This document shows, in pieces, positions 5,359 to 55,478 of a stretch of 64,000 nucleotides of DNA (within the stretch, counting starts at the first letter, position 1; each line of letters starts with the position of its first letter). A program made the position numbers and the translations under genes. The stretch comes from Gloeocapsopsis dulcis (GTDB lineage Bacteria > Cyanobacteriota > Cyanobacteriia > Cyanobacteriales > Chroococcidiopsidaceae), in the NCBI RefSeq assembly GCF_032163395.1, contig NZ_CP119968.1, positions 47,501 through 111,500 on the forward strand, read 5' to 3'. A model generated the notes under the pieces. That model was given only the letters and a program-made list of their open reading frames with translations, ran no database searches and was not told the origin of the DNA.

Positions 5359-6864
5359 CCTTCTTACAGGAGCGCGACCGTATAATTCTGTAAGAGATTT
5401 TAGGCGATCGCTTAACTCTGAAGTCAAATCGCTAGAAGAGTAGCGCCATTCCCAGTTGCCTTCGGGTTTACTAGGATAGTTCATTCTCGCTTCTGTTGGT
5501 AATCCTAGTAAATCTTGCAGTGGAATCAGTGTTTGGTCTGCTACTGAACTTAAAGCTAAACGAATTAAATCCCAATGGATACCGTCAGAACTTAGACAAC
5601 CCAAGTAACGCAACAATCTTTCTTTTTCGTACTCGGAAGCACTATTAAACCAACCTACAGTTGTATCGTTATCATGCGTTCCTGTATAAACAACACAGTT
5701 ACGGGGAAAATTGAATGGTAAGAAAGGATTAGCCGCATCCGAACCGAACGCAAACTGCAAAATTTTCATTCCAGGAAATTCAAACTGATCGCGCAACGCC
5801 TCAACTTCGGGTGTAATTACGCCTAAATCTTCGGCTAGAACAGGAAGCTTGCCCAACTGTGCGTTGATTGCATAAAATAACGCTTCTCCTGGTGCTTCGA
5901 TCCACTCTCCATTCATCGCGGTAGTTTCTCCTTGTTCCACCGCCCAGTAAGCTTGAAATCCCCGAAAGTGATCAATCCGAATAATATCAACGTAATCAAG
6001 GATTGCTTGAAAACGCTGCACCCACCACTTAAAATCCAGTTGCTGTAATTTTTCCCAATTATATACAGGATTACCCCACAACTGACCAGTGTCACTAAAG
6101 TAATCTGGAGGGACTCCTGCCATTAAAGCTGCTTCGCCTGTTTCTTCATTCAAACAAAAAATCTCTGGGTTCGCCCAGACATCAGCACTATCATGCGCTA
6201 CATAAATAGGAATATCACCAATGATGACAATACCATGCTTGTTAGCGTAGTGTTTTAGCTCATTCCACTGACGGAAAAACTCAAACTGCACAAATTTGTG
6301 GTAAAAAACTTCTGCTTCGAGTTGTTGGCGCGATCGCTCCAATGCCTCTGGATGACGGCGTGCGATTTCTGGTTCCCATTGATACCAACTCGTTCCCTCA
6401 TTTGTATCTTTCAGCGCCATGAACAATGCATAATCATCCAACCAATAGGCTTTAGCAGTACAAAATTGGATAAATTCTTGTTGCTGCTGTGATGTTGCTT
6501 TTGTCCTAAAGTTTTCGCAGGCTTTCTTAAGTAAAGGAATCTTGGTTTGTACAACTTGGTCAAAATCAACCTTGTTGTAAGGAAACTCTAATAAATTGAC
6601 AAAGTCATCCGGTGTCAGTAACTCTTGTGTTACCAATCTTTCAGGACTGATCAACAGAGGATTACCTGCCATTGCTGAATAAGAAGCATAAGGAGAGTTA
6701 CCATAACCTGTAGGTCCTAGTGGTAAAACCTGCCACAACTGTTGAGCGCTTTGCACTAAAAAATCAATAAAAGAATAGGCTGATTCGCCAAGATCGCCGA
6801 CACCAAATTTACTCGGGAAGGAGGTGGGATGTAGCAATATACCACTAGCTCTGGGAAAAGGCAT
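5353..6864 (-). CDS. malQ: 4-alpha-glucanotransferase (amylomaltase, GH77)
   Basis: A 503-residue enzyme of full family length that transfers alpha-1,4-glucan segments between chains in glycogen and maltodextrin metabolism. It begins MPFPRASGILLHPTSFPS, typical of plant and cyanobacterial disproportionating enzyme. Catalytic landmarks are DIIRIDHFRGF (nucleophile Asp), PVLAEDLGVITPEV (acid/base Glu) and GTHDNDTTVGW (transition-state Asp). The glucan-binding GNSPYASYSAMAGNPLLI is near the N-terminus. The last residues (VRRE) and the stop are encoded at the edge of a dispersed repeat, so the C-terminal tail may have been altered by repeat insertion. It is a single-gene unit, convergent with the RodZ-like gene. 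Confidence 0.96.
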   Translation of the reverse strand: MPFPRASGILLHPTSFPSKFGVGDLGESAYSFIDFLVQSAQQLWQVLPLGPTGYGNSPYASYSAMAGNPLLISPERLVTQELLTPDDFVNLLEFPYNKVDFDQVVQTKIPLLKKACENFRTKATSQQQQEFIQFCTAKAYWLDDYALFMALKDTNEGTSWYQWEPEIARRHPEALERSRQQLEAEVFYHKFVQFEFFRQWNELKHYANKHGIVIIGDIPIYVAHDSADVWANPEIFCLNEETGEAALMAGVPPDYFSDTGQLWGNPVYNWEKLQQLDFKWWVQRFQAILDYVDIIRIDHFRGFQAYWAVEQGETTAMNGEWIEAPGEALFYAINAQLGKLPVLAEDLGVITPEVEALRDQFEFPGMKILQFAFGSDAANPFLPFNFPRNCVVYTGTHDNDTTVGWFNSASEYEKERLLRYLGCLSSDGIHWDLIRLALSSVADQTLIPLQDLLGLPTEARMNYPSKPEGNWEWRYSSSDLTSELSDRLKSLTELYGRAPVRRE

Positions 6865-7085
6865 ATTTAATCTAAATTATTAAGAGCAGTCGCAATGAAT
6901 TTACCATGCTGCATCCTTACTTAAAACCTACCTGTGGTTATGAAGCCCAAACGATCTTCTTTTGTCTGTTTGCTACAGTTCCTTAGTAACCAGTTGTACT
7001 TAACACAGCGGCACTTTACTAAATTTCACCGAGAATGACTCTATAATATTTTTCAAAACTTCAATTTATTCTGAGGTCGTCATTT

Positions 7086-7952
7086 ATGTATTTACGACAA
7101 GCACTCAAGACTATCGTTCCTGAACCTATACTAAAGAAAATCAGAGCTAACTACAATAAACATAAAAAATATAGTAACGAGATTCAATTACTCAAAGGTA
7201 AAAGAATTTCTCAAAGTTGTGAAAAAAGCGTGGTTTTTTTTACAACGCGCAAATGCGCTTCTACTTATATGGATAAATGTATTGAGTATCTCAATGAGAA
7301 ATATTTAAAGTTAACTCAAGTTAACTTAGAGTCCTATATATGGCAGTACTCTAATCAAGATATGTATCAAGTTTTAGAAGAAAAATTGATGGCTTTTCAA
7401 TCTCAAGGTGTCTTGTACGCTCCGCTGCGCAACTATATTCCTATTAAAGATATAGAAAATTATCGCATATTATTAATGCTGAGAGACCCGCGTGACGTTA
7501 TTGTATCAAACTATTATTCTTTAGGTTTTAGTCATTCATTACCTCTTGATGAAGAACGTAGGAAGGAGTTTTTAGAGTTTCGGGGAAGAATTCAAAAACA
7601 AACTGTAGATGAGTATGTTATTGAACGGGCTGATCGTTTTTATCGTATGTACGATGAATACTGCAACTTAATTAAAGCTCAAAATCTTCAATGGCTGCGA
7701 TATGAAGACTTTATGCAAGACTTTGATCTCTGGGTAAAACAATTAGGAGAGTGCCTTCAAATTTCAATCAATGAACAAGATAAAAGTACATTATTTGAAA
7801 TGAAAGGAGGCGGTCAACAGGTAGAAGAAAATAAGCTTAAACATATCAGAAAAGCTACTCCAGGCGATCACAAAGAGAAATTAAGTAAAGAGACTCAAGA
7901 TTTTCTTAATATGAAATTTAAAGATTTACTTTTAATATTAAAATATGAATAA
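7086..7952 (+). CDS. sulfotransferase-family protein
   Basis: A 288-residue protein with the two PAPS-binding elements of sulfotransferases. VVFFTTRKCASTYMDK (about residues 49-64) corresponds to the 5'-phosphosulfate loop, and ILLMLRDPRDVIVSNYYS (about 128-145) to the 3'-phosphate site. The segment WLRYEDFMQDF further on is also typical. Such enzymes move sulfate from PAPS to hydroxyl groups on small molecules or glycans; the acceptor is unknown. The gene is more AT-rich than its neighbours. A TATAAT -10-like hexamer at 7042-7047 lies upstream. The remnant of a second sulfotransferase lies immediately downstream, so the pair may have arrived together. Confidence 0.8.
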   Translation: MYLRQALKTIVPEPILKKIRANYNKHKKYSNEIQLLKGKRISQSCEKSVVFFTTRKCASTYMDKCIEYLNEKYLKLTQVNLESYIWQYSNQDMYQVLEEKLMAFQSQGVLYAPLRNYIPIKDIENYRILLMLRDPRDVIVSNYYSLGFSHSLPLDEERRKEFLEFRGRIQKQTVDEYVIERADRFYRMYDEYCNLIKAQNLQWLRYEDFMQDFDLWVKQLGECLQISINEQDKSTLFEMKGGGQQVEENKLKHIRKATPGDHKEKLSKETQDFLNMKFKDLLLILKYE

Positions 7953-8005
7953 CTGTAGATGGTTTAGTGTATAAATTAATAGAGTAAAAGAGTAGGTATG
8001 CGCGC

Positions 8006-8275
8006 GGATTATTATTTTCTACTCATGACTCGCTTGATGATAAGATTAAACATTTAGTCTTTGGTAAATACTACAATCGCCCATATCTTTTTCCTAGAGT
8101 GGCTTGTAATGAAACTTACTTAATATCTTTCCCAAGATCTGGTAACACTTAGCTACGACGTTTACTAACTGCGTTAATTCATCAGAAAAAAGCTGGCTGG
8201 CAGCTAACAGAGAGGGCAGTAGCTGATATTTATAAATACAAGTTTTGGAGATATACCCGCAAAAGTACTCAATGA
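8006..8275 (+). pseudogene. sulfotransferase N-terminal remnant with in-frame TAG
   Basis: One frame reads YLISFPRSGNT, then TAG (8150-8152), then LRRLLTALIHQKKAGWQL, then stops at 8273. In intact sulfotransferases this loop is PRSGNTWLR, so TAG stands exactly where the conserved Trp (TGG) is expected; one G-to-A change would do it. About 48 open codons precede the motif (for example FGKYYNRPYLFPRVACNETY). The rest of the enzyme, about 200 residues with the second PAPS site, is absent because the next gene starts here. I infer a dead fragment. Its last four bases overlap the NUDIX start codon. Confidence 0.7.
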
Positions 8276-8706
8276 ACTACCGCAATCCTGTACCTACTGT
8301 TGATATAATTATTGAGTTAGTTGATAAGCCGCATCGACCGATTATCTTAATTGAACGCCATAATTCACCGTTAGGCTGGGCAATTCCTGGTGGGTTTGTT
8401 GACTATGGCGAATCTGTAGAATCAGCTGCCCAACGCGAAGCACAAGAAGAAATCGGCTTGCAAGTAGAACTGATAGAACAATTTCAAGTATATTCCGATC
8501 CACAGCGCGATCCACGTCAGCACACGCTTAGTGTAGTCTTTTTAGCGACAGCAACAGGTGAACCACAAGCTGGAGATGATGCGAAGAACTTGGGAATCTT
8601 TGAATCTTGGCGGATTCCAACTAATCTTTGCTTTGACCACGATCGCATCTTGCGAGATTATTGGCGTTATCGCCATTATGGTATCCGACCTCGTTTATCT
8701 TATTAA
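8272..8706 (+). CDS. NUDIX hydrolase
   Basis: A 144-residue single-domain NUDIX protein. The Nudix box G-x5-E-x7-R-E-U-x-E-E-x-G is complete in [19 protein letters not shown] plus EEIGLQ, providing the metal-binding glutamates. The N-terminal strand VDIIIEL and the following [20 protein letters not shown] are typical of ADP-ribose pyrophosphatase-like members that hydrolyse nucleoside diphosphates linked to another group. I start it at the ATG at 8272, because upstream residues belong to the sulfotransferase remnant. Fourteen bases separate it from ridA, so the two are probably cotranscribed. Confidence 0.9.
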
Positions 8707-51118: not shown

Positions 51119-51209
51119 CTTGCAAGCAGAAGTTCAACAAGTGGCTTCTCTGGAGCCTTGGTTTACCATCAAACTTAAAACACTACCTAGTCAAGTAGCG
51201 ACAAACGAT

Positions 51210-51758
51210 TTAGTTTCTGAATAAGTCGGTTGTCAGTGTCTGCATCGTGCGCTGAAAGGGAGTAGTGTCATCTAGCCCTCGCGCTAACACCAAAGCACCT
51301 TGAATTCGCAAGACGGCATCTTCAGCGCGACGTCTGGCTAATTGAGACTCCAATCCAACCTCCTCAAGTACGGCTGCAATCGCATCAATCCATTGTGATA
51401 GCGCCAACTTAATTTGGCTGTGGAAGAGATCGTTGCTTGATCGTTCTAAGGCTAAAACAGCCCATAGACAGGAATTTTGTCCTTCATTAAAAAACTTGCT
51501 CACTTGATCGCACATCGCCTGTAACTTGTCGATCGGCGCTGCCTTACTTCTGAGAGGCTGCAAAATGCAGGTCTCCAACCACGTATTCACCCGCTCCAGT
51601 GCTGCCTTAGCCATCTCCTCCTTGCCGCCTGGGAAATAGTGGTAGAGATTAGTTTTGCCCAACCCCGTCACCTTTGCCAGACATGACAAACTTGCCCCGT
51701 CGTAGCCGTATAGCCGAAATGCATCAATTAACTGACTAACAAGCTTTTCTCTAGACAT
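51210..51758 (-). CDS. TetR/AcrR family regulator
   Basis: A 182-residue repressor. The helix-turn-helix is at residues 8-55: LIDAFRLYGYDGASLSCLAK, then VTGLGKTNLYHYFPGGKEEM, the typical TetR DNA-recognition pattern. The C-terminal ligand domain is of the YxaF/LmrA-like type with VLRIQGALVLARGLDDTTPF. It lies divergent from the DJ-1 gene with a 93-base gap containing two copies of a palindrome. Both genes look more GC-rich than surroundings, suggesting arrival as a unit. The regulator probably controls both genes. Confidence 0.9.
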   Translation of the reverse strand: MSREKLVSQLIDAFRLYGYDGASLSCLAKVTGLGKTNLYHYFPGGKEEMAKAALERVNTWLETCILQPLRSKAAPIDKLQAMCDQVSKFFNEGQNSCLWAVLALERSSNDLFHSQIKLALSQWIDAIAAVLEEVGLESQLARRRAEDAVLRIQGALVLARGLDDTTPFQRTMQTLTTDLFRN

Positions 51759-51793
51759 TGTTTGAGGTTGTGATTGCTATTGCTTGACATTTT

Positions 51794-51834
51794 AACGAAC
51801 ATTCAGTAGTTTTGGTTTGACGAACGTTCAGTAG
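51794..51834. promoter_or_regulatory. two operator-like palindromes between tetR-type and DJ-1 genes
   Basis: AACGAACATTCAGTAG (51794-51809) and GACGAACGTTCAGTAG (51819-51834) share CGAAC(A/G)TTCAGTAG; the second centres on the perfect palindrome GAACGTTC. Centres are 25 bp apart. The first lies between a TTGACA box (51784-51789) and a TAGTTT (51807-51812) at 17-bp spacing, so binding would block the + strand promoter. Confidence 0.7.
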
Positions 51835-51851
51835 CCTTGTTAGGAGTAGTT

Positions 51852-52544
51852 ATGGCTCAAAAAATTGCAGGCTTTCGCCTGGGGATCTACGTCTTTAAGG
51901 ATGCAGAGGTGATTGACTATGCGGCTCCCTACGGCGTGTTTTCGGTAGCGCGGCGCTTTGACCCTGAATTGGATGTCTTTTTGATTGGTGAAACCCTACG
52001 CCCGACTCAAACCCAGGCAGGATTCACCGTGCTACCGAACTATGGCTTTAATGATCGCCCGTCGATGAATGCGTTTTTGATTCCCGGCGGGTTTGGAACT
52101 CGGCAGGAGCTACACAATGGCAACTTGCATCACTTCATTCGGCAACTACCAGAGTCTTGCTTGCTCACCAGTGTCTGCACAGGCTCCTGGATCTACGGCA
52201 AGATGGACTTGTTGGATGGGCTGCCTGCTACCAACCGTAAAGAACCCGATCGCCTCGAAGCCTCGAACTTTGGCAAAGTGCCGATTGATCGGCTGGCAGA
52301 AATTGCCCCGACCTGTCGCATCAGTCGATCGCGCGTCGTCGATGCCGGACGCATCATCACCGCAGGCGGAATTGCTTCAGGGATGGAAATGGGTTTCTAC
52401 TTACTCAAACGAGCCGGATACGATGATGCATTCGTGAATGAAGTTGCGCGAACGATGGAATATCAAAAAGCCTATGACCTTTACCGCACTGACATCGAAG
52501 TGGCTAGGCATGAGGCAGTCACAGCAGACAGCGATGCCGCATAA
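51852..52544 (+). CDS. DJ-1/PfpI family protein
   Basis: A 230-residue DJ-1/PfpI-superfamily protein, similar to AraC-type regulator N-domains but with no DNA-binding part. It has IYVFKDAEVIDYAAPYGVFS, the region FLIPGGFGTRQ (oxyanion Gly-Gly), and the nucleophile elbow SVCTGSWIYGK with the conserved Cys. Near the end ITAGGIASGMEMGFYLLKRA is the usual closing motif. Members include chaperones, glyoxalases and isonitrile hydratases, so the activity is undecided. ATG at 51852; the TTG at 51837 lies in the operator region. Base composition is more GC-rich than neighbours. Divergent TetR-type regulator next door. Confidence 0.88.
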   Translation: MAQKIAGFRLGIYVFKDAEVIDYAAPYGVFSVARRFDPELDVFLIGETLRPTQTQAGFTVLPNYGFNDRPSMNAFLIPGGFGTRQELHNGNLHHFIRQLPESCLLTSVCTGSWIYGKMDLLDGLPATNRKEPDRLEASNFGKVPIDRLAEIAPTCRISRSRVVDAGRIITAGGIASGMEMGFYLLKRAGYDDAFVNEVARTMEYQKAYDLYRTDIEVARHEAVTADSDAA

Positions 52545-52612
52545 AACCAAGCTTCCAAGATTTTGATCTGACGCTTGATCGCTATCATTCACCATACAGA
52601 GAATGCCAACTC

Positions 52613-52768
52613 ATGATTAAGCTTTACGGTCACAAGGATGAAAACGGCAACTCAATAATGTTCAATTGCTCATCCAACCATTTATCTTCTTTTGCTCAAT
52701 CAAGCCTTGGCTCAGGGTGTTTGAAATTCCTCGTTTACAATGCAACTTCAAATTTGTGCATCAACTAG
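52613..52768 (+). CDS. 51-codon open frame, possible glutathione S-transferase start remnant
   Basis: An ATG at 52613 opens MIKLYGHKDENGNSI and runs 51 codons to 52768, overlapping the end of the opposite gene by 8 bases. MIKLYGH is typical of the first strand of glutathione S-transferases, but what follows is not like the family. Either a decayed fragment or chance. No ribosome site seen. Confidence 0.2.
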   Translation: MIKLYGHKDENGNSIMFNCSSNHLSSFAQSSLGSGCLKFLVYNATSNLCIN

Positions 52769-53981
52769 CTTCTGTATTTGAAGTATACTCACCTAACTGA
52801 CCAGGTACGCTTTTCCACCGTCCTTGTTTAGCACCACTCCAGAGGATTTTGCCAACTTTCGCTTTAGCTTCGGTCAACTCCTTTCCCGCGATTTCACCAT
52901 ATAAGATTCGTGCCACTTTTTCAGGAGTTAAAATCTCACCAGCGTTTTCCTGTACCACAGTCGCAACTGCTGCAGTAAAACTCATATTTTGATAACGCGT
53001 TAGTAATTGCTCATTCGATTTGTTTGGATGTTTTTGTGTTCTAGGTTGATTGTTCTGATCTTTGTTCAAGCTAGAGTCTGACTCAGTGAGCTTCAGGTCA
53101 ATCGTGTAGCAACCAGGAGAGTCTGGTACTTTCTCCCATAGTCCTTTTTCTACTCCTTTGCGTAAAGTATCATTCATCCTTAACTTTTCTGCTTTAAGGT
53201 CTTGTACATCAATTTCTCCATGCACAGCACGAATAATGTAATCTAAGTGCAAGATACTTCCTTCATTTTCTTGCAATAGTTGCTCCACTGCTTCAGATTT
53301 ACTCAAGTGCTGATACTGTGGCAGCAGTGGTGTTTTGAGAAATCGCGATTGTTGAGGAGAGTGCGTTGGGCGGGCAAAGTCTCGACTTGAAGCAACTGTC
53401 TGGTGAGGATCTCGAAAGGTTGAATGCTCTGTATCTAGTGACTGAATAGGTAACTCAGATTCAGAATCTAGTTCTTCCACAGAAGTAGGGGTTTGCGGTT
53501 CAGGTTGTGGAAGTGATGCTTCTTCTATGTTTTGTTCCTCTGACTGTTCCAGATTGTCTAATAAGTCTGATTGCTGTTGCGATTCTCCCTTGCTGTTCGC
53601 AAATACATTAAGATTCTGCTTTTCAGTTGGGCTTGGAACAATAGTCTGTAGTTCGTTGTGCTGGAGAACTATTTGGTCGGCAAGGAGGGCGTTGATATGC
53701 GCGATCTGTTCTTTAGCATTTTGGGCTTTTGACTGTTGTTGCGCGTGTAGTGTTTGGTAGTGCGCTCTGAGTTGAACCAAATTTTCGACAAACTGCTGAT
53801 TTTCCACCAACTGATCCGCTAACAAAGCATTAATGTGATTAAGCTGTTCTGTTGTATGGGAAATAGCGCGATCGCACTTTTGTTGCAGTGTTTGGTAGCG
53901 ATCGCGCAGTTCAATTAAGTTGTGAATGAAGTGTTGAAATTGATCCATCTTTTGAGTTTGAGTGTCTACTGTGGCTAGCAT
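52761..53981 (-). CDS. unrecognised coiled-coil protein with two winged-helix-like repeats
   Basis: A 406-residue protein I do not recognise as a named family. Residues 12-60 and 64-105 are two copies of a coiled-coil unit sharing NL-(x)2-LR-(x)2-YQTL and HINALLADQ. Residues 110-220 are polar and low-complexity (rich in Q, S, E). Residues 225-295 and 332-402 are a duplicated domain of about 71 residues sharing AV, QEN-G-IL, GEI, K...L and G-W-VP-G-YT; the layout (three helices, then a hairpin) resembles HARE-HTH-type winged helices, predicted to bind DNA. A DNA-binding or nucleoid role is my inference. It is divergent from a small zinc-ribbon gene only 31 bases away. Confidence 0.75.
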   Translation of the reverse strand: MLATVDTQTQKMDQFQHFIHNLIELRDRYQTLQQKCDRAISHTTEQLNHINALLADQLVENQQFVENLVQLRAHYQTLHAQQQSKAQNAKEQIAHINALLADQIVLQHNELQTIVPSPTEKQNLNVFANSKGESQQQSDLLDNLEQSEEQNIEEASLPQPEPQTPTSVEELDSESELPIQSLDTEHSTFRDPHQTVASSRDFARPTHSPQQSRFLKTPLLPQYQHLSKSEAVEQLLQENEGSILHLDYIIRAVHGEIDVQDLKAEKLRMNDTLRKGVEKGLWEKVPDSPGCYTIDLKLTESDSSLNKDQNNQPRTQKHPNKSNEQLLTRYQNMSFTAAVATVVQENAGEILTPEKVARILYGEIAGKELTEAKAKVGKILWSGAKQGRWKSVPGQLGEYTSNTEAS

Positions 53982-54012
53982 ATTATTTACAGCAGTGTCA
54001 TATTTCTAGGTT

Positions 54013-54255
54013 ATGCCATCTAAGCAAGTTCATGTTCGAGAATACACAGTAAGGGCACACGAGCGAGTGATCCATACCCGCTTGTACAAGTTTATCTGTA
54101 AGCAATGTAACAAAGATGTTGAGCGCGAAACTTATGGTCCACGTCCGTTGTACTGCGATCGCTGCCGACCAAGTATGACTCGCACCGAGATGGGTAAGAA
54201 GAAAAAACCTAGACCTGTGTTAGTCAAGCAGCAAAAACGCCGTAACGCTAGCTAA
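54013..54255 (+). CDS. small basic zinc-ribbon protein of unknown function
   Basis: An 80-residue protein. Cys29 and Cys32 (FICKQCNKD) and Cys48 and Cys51 (LYCDRCRPS) form a four-Cys zinc ribbon. The flanks are strongly basic ([20 protein letters not shown] at the C-terminus), suggesting nucleic-acid or ribosome binding; this is inference. The N-terminus ([20 protein letters not shown]) is also basic. It looks like a conserved cyanobacterial protein, from its compact form and clean codon use. Divergent from the coiled-coil protein, with only 31 bases between starts, so their promoters must overlap coding DNA. Confidence 0.72.
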
Positions 54256-54277
54256 TATAATAGCCTTTGGTTGGCTT

Positions 54278-54385
54278 ATAAGTATCTATAAACTGCCATC
54301 TAAAGCGACACAAATATGATTTTGTTTACCTCTTTTTTGTGCCGTTCTTAAGGATATGAGTTGAGCCACAACTAGGGCATTGCAT
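54278..54385 (-). mobile_element. remnant of IS1-family InsA
   Basis: On the minus strand from the ATG at 54385 the translation is MQCPSCGSTHILKNGTKKR, a stop, then TKSYLCRFRWQFIDTY. This follows the InsA zinc-finger pattern of IS1 elements (CPxCxS-x-I-KNG, K-x-YxC, QFIDxY), with a stop codon and a lost second Cys pair. The rest of the element is missing; the remnant ends near the zinc-ribbon gene. From 54386 to 54770 I see no gene; a 65-codon frame starting at a GTG at 54546 looks like chance. Confidence 0.6.
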
Positions 54386-54770
54386 TCTCAACCACTTTCT
54401 GCAACACAATTTTTACTCTAGCTTAGGGCTTACACTGGTTCCTTTAGTTCTTTAACGTAAGGTTATCAGTGAGACAATGCTGCAAAGCGATCAATGAGAG
54501 AATTATGCCTTGGGGAACTCTGAAAGGTGAGATTTATTTTCAGTAGTGATAGAGCATAAATTAGCTTATGCCGGATATGTACATGGCTATTCAACAACGG
54601 TGATGAGCTGTTGGTTTTTATTTCAGTCGTATTGCCCACTGATGCAGAGATTAATTTATGTTGATAGGAAATTTTATAATTTTCTATTCCTAACCATTCA
54701 ATTCTACAAGCTGTTTTCGACAGTGTGTGATTTCAAATATTAGGTGAAGTAGAAAAGGCACTTTAGATAT

Positions 54771-55160
54771 ATGAAACTGTTGGTTCAATATCTTTATCAA
54801 CTAAAGTTAGATAAAACAATTCTTTGGTGCTATTTTATTTGGTATGTTGTAGTCGTTTATTTCTATTTTGATCCGTCGTCTAAGATATGGATTAATGCTG
54901 TTGGTATCAGTGCTGTAATTGGCACAGCGTTAGTATTAAGTGTTTCTTCTGGAAAGGGTGGCAAACGAGATTATTGGCAAACATTCAGGTTATATCTCAT
55001 GCCATTCTGTGTCTCAAGCTTTTCTGCTTTGATTAAAGAACAGGGATTTATTGTAGTTATATCTCCAAAGATTAAAGAAACACTAGTAGCTGTATCATGC
55101 TGCGCTCTGTTTCTGTGCGTTGTTTTAGTAATAAAACGAACTAAAAATAAAATTGCCTAG
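54771..55160 (+). CDS. small integral membrane protein of unknown function
   Basis: A 129-residue protein with about four hydrophobic segments: ILWCYFIWYVVVVYFYF (residues about 17-33), WINAVGISAVIGTALVLSVS (about 41-60), FRLYLMPFCVSSFSALI and LVAVSCCALFLCVVLVIKR. A Lys/Gly-rich loop, SSGKGGKRDY, lies between the second and third. No known family is recognised. It lies amid remnants of two transposase types and may itself be accessory DNA. ATG at 54771. Confidence 0.6.
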   Translation: MKLLVQYLYQLKLDKTILWCYFIWYVVVVYFYFDPSSKIWINAVGISAVIGTALVLSVSSGKGGKRDYWQTFRLYLMPFCVSSFSALIKEQGFIVVISPKIKETLVAVSCCALFLCVVLVIKRTKNKIA

Positions 55161-55188
55161 TAACTGCAAAAGTATCACCAATCAACAA

Positions 55189-55353
55189 GTAAAACTCACG
55201 GCAAAACGCAATAACCACGTCAGAGACTACCTGTACAAGACGGCACGCTTGATCGCGAACCACTGTATCCAAAACAGTATTTCCAACTTAACTTTTAGGT
55301 ATAGTTCTGGTATCAAATTAGGGCAAGCAAACTTAAAAACTGGTGGTTTCTAA
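55189..55353 (+). mobile_element. remnant of an IS200/IS605-type TnpB
   Basis: The open piece KLTAKRNNHVRDYLYKTAR plus LIANHCIQNSIS and YSSGIKLGQANL matches the middle of TnpB (OrfB) proteins, where R-N-(x)3-DYLHK-x-AR, a strand, then GIKQG-NLG is usual. After GQANL the frame leaves the family and ends. No catalytic DED triad or zinc finger remains, and no TnpA is nearby. It is a short dead fragment, starting about 30 bases after the membrane-protein gene. Confidence 0.65.
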
Positions 55354-55478
55354 AAGTGAGATGCAGGTCCTCAACCGTAACGAAGCTGGTACTTGATGCG
55401 AACCATATCATTAACTTACATTAAAAATCTCTGGGCATTGAGTGAGCCGACATCTTGCTTATTTATACGTAGTAGCTT

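Follow-up and report, generated by a model that had tools for sequence, protein, structure and literature searches.

The window analysed here is a 64,000-nucleotide stretch of Gloeocapsopsis dulcis DNA, situated on a 5.3-Mb contig of a near-complete cyanobacterial genome. Among its genes is one encoding a 406 amino acid protein, here called Q (52761..53981, minus strand, ATG start), in which a coiled coil is followed by two predicted winged-helix domains; it was characterised through its open reading frame, homologs, AlphaFold2 model and dN/dS values. A divergent gap of 31 bp (53982..54012) separates it from gene Z (54013..54255, plus strand), recognised by its open reading frame, homologs, charge and linkage to Q, which specifies an 80 amino acid basic protein (net charge +15). 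Both lie within a variable segment of about 4.35 kb (51127..55473) between glmS and an aminotransferase gene, together with a putative TetR-like gene and a putative DJ-1/GATase-like gene, both named from sequence. The open reading frame of Q, and a gap of this length to a small basic zinc-ribbon gene, are as the original prediction had described them.

The two internal duplications claimed for Q proved to lie far above the level of shuffled sequences. Self-alignment revealed coiled-coil units at residues 16–59 (53805..53936, minus strand) and 62–105 (53667..53798, minus strand), both within a modelled helix spanning residues 5–113, with 22 of 44 positions identical and no gaps; their score of 112 compares with a mean of 26.6 and a maximum of 51 among 1000 shuffles, none of which scored as high. 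The C-terminal domains, residues 225–297 (53091..53309, minus strand) and 331–403 (52773..52991, minus strand), are identical at 28 of 75 positions (score 130, shuffle maximum 43, 0/1000 as high), were related by profile-profile comparison with a probability of 99.8%, and both contain the motifs QEN-G-IL, GEI and G-W-VP-G-YT that had been read in them. The linker between the coil and these domains (residues 114–214; 53340..53642, minus strand) is acidic, with a net charge of -13, and predicted to be disordered (pLDDT <50 over residues 115–213). Homologs of Q were present in 23 of 60 near relatives. The dN/dS values were 0.06–0.09 for domain 1, the most conserved part, 0.10–0.18 for domain 2, 0.16–0.18 for the coil and 0.40–0.66 for the linker; since these values are low, Q is a real gene of a family under purifying selection.

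The architecture varies among cyanobacteria. A variant in genome G008 (L013 1183-2664) has three winged-helix domains per chain, and the linker of another in G041 (L021 694-1815) holds apparently two copies of a different HTH-like segment. A looser family (L172, L173, L175, L177, L178) comprises proteins of about 220 amino acids with an N-terminal coil and a single winged helix, which matched no named family; a Z gene adjoins the paralog at L177 too.

The full-length protein was modelled using AlphaFold2 with an alignment of 50 family members, giving the N-terminal helix, disorder over residues 115–213 and two domains at pLDDT >90. In each domain the secondary structure runs helix-strand-helix-helix-strand-strand, so that helix 3, the last of the three, is followed by a beta wing, and domain 1 modelled alone reached a mean pLDDT of 92.4. 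The fold matches were almost all winged helices, among them the C-terminal domain of LACTB2 (VIA Z 10.2, rmsd 2.8 over 74 residues) and Zalpha domains (Z about 8.5–8.7, rmsd 1.5–1.6 over 57–58 residues). On these models we are confident that both C-terminal domains are winged helices in fold, as had been supposed from the sequence. No Foldseek match of the Q models reached E ≤0.001, and the result therefore speaks to fold and not to kinship: generic winged-helix domains (LACTB2 C-terminal, Zalpha, Fur and cullin WHB) are 12–20% identical to Q and have nothing but the fold in common with it. A Zalpha-like, Z-DNA-binding reading of the fold matches was dropped, the residues of helix 3 being variable across the family. 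Among the high Foldseek rows for the full model were tandem winged-helix KITE subunits such as JetB and MukE, which were covered over both domains (8as8_C, E 5e-3; 3euh_C). Their domains are arranged differently relative to each other (target TM-score about 0.26 or less, rmsd >10), and no SMC or kleisin genes were noted near Q.

For Q and Z, nothing but matches below threshold or attributable to chance came out of scans against Pfam, NCBIfam, PHROGs and PADLOC, and searches of the PDB by sequence and by profile found no relative. The PADLOC match to DrmC (8.5e-4) was taken as chance, as it was confined to 66 residues of domain 2 against a model of 256 positions and was absent from the Nostoc homolog. 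No phage relatives were found, with one viral-contig match among 29 candidates. A literature search, which reached few subscription journals, found no published description of the pair.

The suggestion that Q belongs to the HARE-HTH family (PF05066; RNA polymerase delta, ASXL), which would make it a reader of modified DNA, did not survive these comparisons. Both are winged-helix-type domains of about 70 residues and the C-terminal motif is superficially similar, but there is no match in sequence: the PF05066 profile had no match in the whole genome, the family was absent from those listed for 50 Q family members, and hhalign of the domain profile against Bacillus subtilis delta, a classic HARE-HTH member, returned 0.1%. 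The solved delta-subunit domain was not among the fold matches listed, an absence that by itself excludes nothing. HARE-HTH domains have an extra helix inside the HTH (PMC11037411, published in 2024); in the domain-1 model of Q a four-residue loop joins helices 33–41 and 46–65 where it would be expected. Membership was dropped because of the missing profile match, the 0.1% hhalign value and this loop. Nothing pointed to sensing of modified DNA, no restriction/modification genes were noted beside the pair, and such a function is now highly improbable.

Z contains a core of the form CxxC...CxxC (Cys 29, 32, 48 and 51; 54097..54165, plus strand), in which C29, C32 and C51 are invariant in the alignment and C48 is present in most rows. 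The two CxxC knuckles mark it as a putative zinc ribbon; no curated zinc-ribbon family matched it above cut-off. Its dN/dS values were 0.07–0.09. Within the divergent gap, a probable shared control region, the 8 Q-Z loci that were aligned agree at every position of the block TACAGCAGT once its first base is set aside, and the 31-bp length is retained in the closest plasmid homologs.

An earlier scan of genome contigs with a single protein as query returned no matches; the zinc-ribbon alignment of Z did find relatives, 332 in all, and 81 loci (80 plus one on a viral contig) were examined, 64 of which also held Q. Z homologs adjoin Q in most Q loci. Adjacency was seen in 78 distinct loci, 61 with Z then Q on the same strand (median gap 10 bp) and 17 divergent (median 56 bp). 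Among 146 cyanobacterial genomes Q was present in 23 and Z in 21, none of the latter lacking Q; in the two genomes that have Q alone the matches were weak and to a single domain. Pairwise distances of Q and Z are correlated over 32 loci (r = 0.74, 0/2000 permutations as high), a figure to which shared descent contributes. The neighbouring zinc-ribbon gene is thus conserved, a test on which the idea of a functional pair had been staked, and the linkage is much stronger than had been guessed. Q and Z are probably an undescribed DNA-organising or DNA-regulating pair.

The segment holding the pair is absent from three relatives, in which about 77 bp separate glmS from the aminotransferase gene. 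One relative belonging to the same genus is Gloeocapsopsis crepidinum LEGE 06123 (G001; L046 is the same 51,439-bp contig). A sibling species, G002, has about 7 kb of different DNA at this junction. Positions 54404-55170, within the variable segment, match a G002 contig that is plasmid-like and has its own Q and parAB. In the tree the window Q clusters with parAB-linked copies (support 100/95), separate from the chromosomal clade of the relatives. A second copy of the pair lies on the 307-kb contig C3 of the same genome (C3:166000-182000, about 6182-8439 of that segment), with transposase ORFs near; its Z is intact and 93% identical to that of the window, and its Q is interrupted by an IS-like element that leaves about the first 28 residues. 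The chromosomal Q may perhaps be the only working one in the genome. ParB matches above the curated cut-off occur only on C3, the chromosome having one weak 87-amino acid fragment. Because the segment is absent from relatives, its Q groups with parAB-linked copies and C3 carries both ParB and a second copy, the most fitting interpretation of the window pair is a chromosomal copy of plasmid origin.

A recurrent arrangement on plasmids and plasmid-like contigs of Chroococcidiopsidaceae is Z, then divergent Q, parA and parB, and the ParA and ParB proteins beside the pair were confirmed as genuine by family scan. In plasmids of Chroococcidiopsis and Nostoc a Z on its own comes immediately after parB; elsewhere it lies just before parA. 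Plasmid pGLO7428.02 carries two Z genes, one adjoining Q and another, diverged to 59% identity, immediately behind parB (L032 9535-9753). The association was counted in 25 plasmid records picked by matches to Z or Q, not by parB, with the best Z place used for each record. In 15 of the 23 records having both Z and parB the two lie within 5.5 kb, where 1.1 were expected; the P value of 3e-15 assumes independent records and, as the records are related, is overstated and rough. The other eight plasmid Z copies lie away from parB. No iteron-like arrays or centromere repeats were found around Q, Z and parAB.

The reading that we favour, with some reserve and at rather less than even probability, is that Q and Z are a DNA-binding pair of the large-plasmid backbone serving maintenance near parAB, the window copy being plasmid-derived and still under selection. 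Q protomers would be joined through the N-terminal coil into an oligomer, from which the acidic disordered tether would lead to the winged helices; the two domains of each chain may bind to DNA and perhaps also to one another or to a partner. Domain 1 may bind protein rather than DNA, since it is slightly acidic overall by charge computation. Z would work together with Q, its strong positive charge suiting it to pair with DNA or with the acidic tether. As a backbone component of large cyanobacterial plasmids, the pair would probably bind a control or centromere region near parAB, may help to hold or position the partition complex, and may regulate its own promoter region. DNA bridging by Q is plausible from its architecture.

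The nearest functional parallel is KfrA. This plasmid protein binds DNA, contains a coiled coil, controls its own expression, contacts segrosome proteins and contributes to maintenance; it interacts with ParA/ParB homologs, and KfrA of RA3 contacts KorB and IncC (PMC7783346). KfrA-type proteins (RK2, R751, RA3) resemble Q in being plasmid-encoded, with a coiled coil of repeated units, an HTH-type DNA-binding part and a gene near the partition operon; KfrA genes adjoin partition genes on conjugative plasmids, and plasmid copies of Q likewise lie beside partition genes, whereas the window copy does not. By this comparison Q is not itself a KfrA, because the order of domains is reversed (KfrA has an N-terminal HTH and then a long coiled coil, Q a coil at the N-terminus and its DNA-binding part at the C-terminus) and the KfrA Pfam model matched neither Q nor the scanned family members. 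Q further differs in having two winged helices instead of one HTH, a zinc-ribbon partner and chromosomal copies.

Partition cannot be the sole role, since most Z-Q operons of Nostocales lie on contigs or chromosomes with no parAB in the vicinity. A transcriptional role is kept as a possibility by the linkage to sigma-70 genes: in 13 of 20 plasmid records a sigma-70 domain lies no more than 5.5 kb from Z (1.25 expected, a rough comparison as the records are related), and in 12 of 20 a sigma-70 gene lies within 3 kb of it (0.7 expected). Nostoc plasmid copies of Z are often flanked by a sigma-70 factor and a RecD-like helicase, the order RecD-sigma-Z with a gap of about 90 bp being repeated on several of these plasmids, and the sigma factor was assigned to TIGR02997, which is the RpoD/SigA family of cyanobacteria. 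Transcription regulation is a common function of winged helices. The pair might accordingly regulate transcription together with a sigma-70 factor dedicated to the plasmid; one partner could, for instance, shape promoter architecture and the zinc-ribbon protein serve as an RNA-polymerase adaptor, and the linkage to parAB would reflect no more than a common plasmid control region. We consider this rather unlikely, though a serious alternative; the sigma gene does not adjoin Q-Z in Chroococcidiopsidaceae or, among the loci read, on Nostocales chromosomes, and known co-factor families do not match the pair.

The many Nostocales genomes that carry the operon, nearly complete chromosomes included, could instead point to a host chromosome-organising or regulatory system of Nostocales and Chroococcidiopsidales, whose plasmid copies do the same DNA-architectural job. 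In three genomes (G014, G010, G004) the chromosomal copies occupy one conserved site beside an antiporter-like cluster; however, the flanking genes on Nostocales chromosomes vary, and the window copy resembles those of plasmids and is a recent arrival at its position, which leaves this an unlikely explanation. That Q is a plasmid replication initiator would suit its tandem winged helices and parAB neighbourhood, but is very doubtful given that chromosomal copies persist in many genomes, that no iteron array was found, that the large plasmids of cyanobacteria use Rep proteins of other families (PMC10899382) and that pGLO7428.02 has its own typed replicon.

Beyond the plasmid-maintenance pair that we favour, a bolder possibility, which we hold to be improbable though worth stating, is that Q and Z form an undescribed segregation or nucleoid-bridging apparatus, acting with ParAB on plasmids and without it on the chromosomes of Nostocales and relatives by means of a tethered double winged helix and a zinc-ribbon partner. 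Little is understood of how DNA is distributed in cyanobacteria that have both numerous chromosome copies and several large plasmids. The conserved Q-Z module is linked to parAB, occurs in many genomes of Nostocales and has no model in Pfam or NCBIfam; it offers a concrete handle on plasmid inheritance or nucleoid order; if the proposal is true, hundreds of "hypothetical protein" annotations would become one named system.
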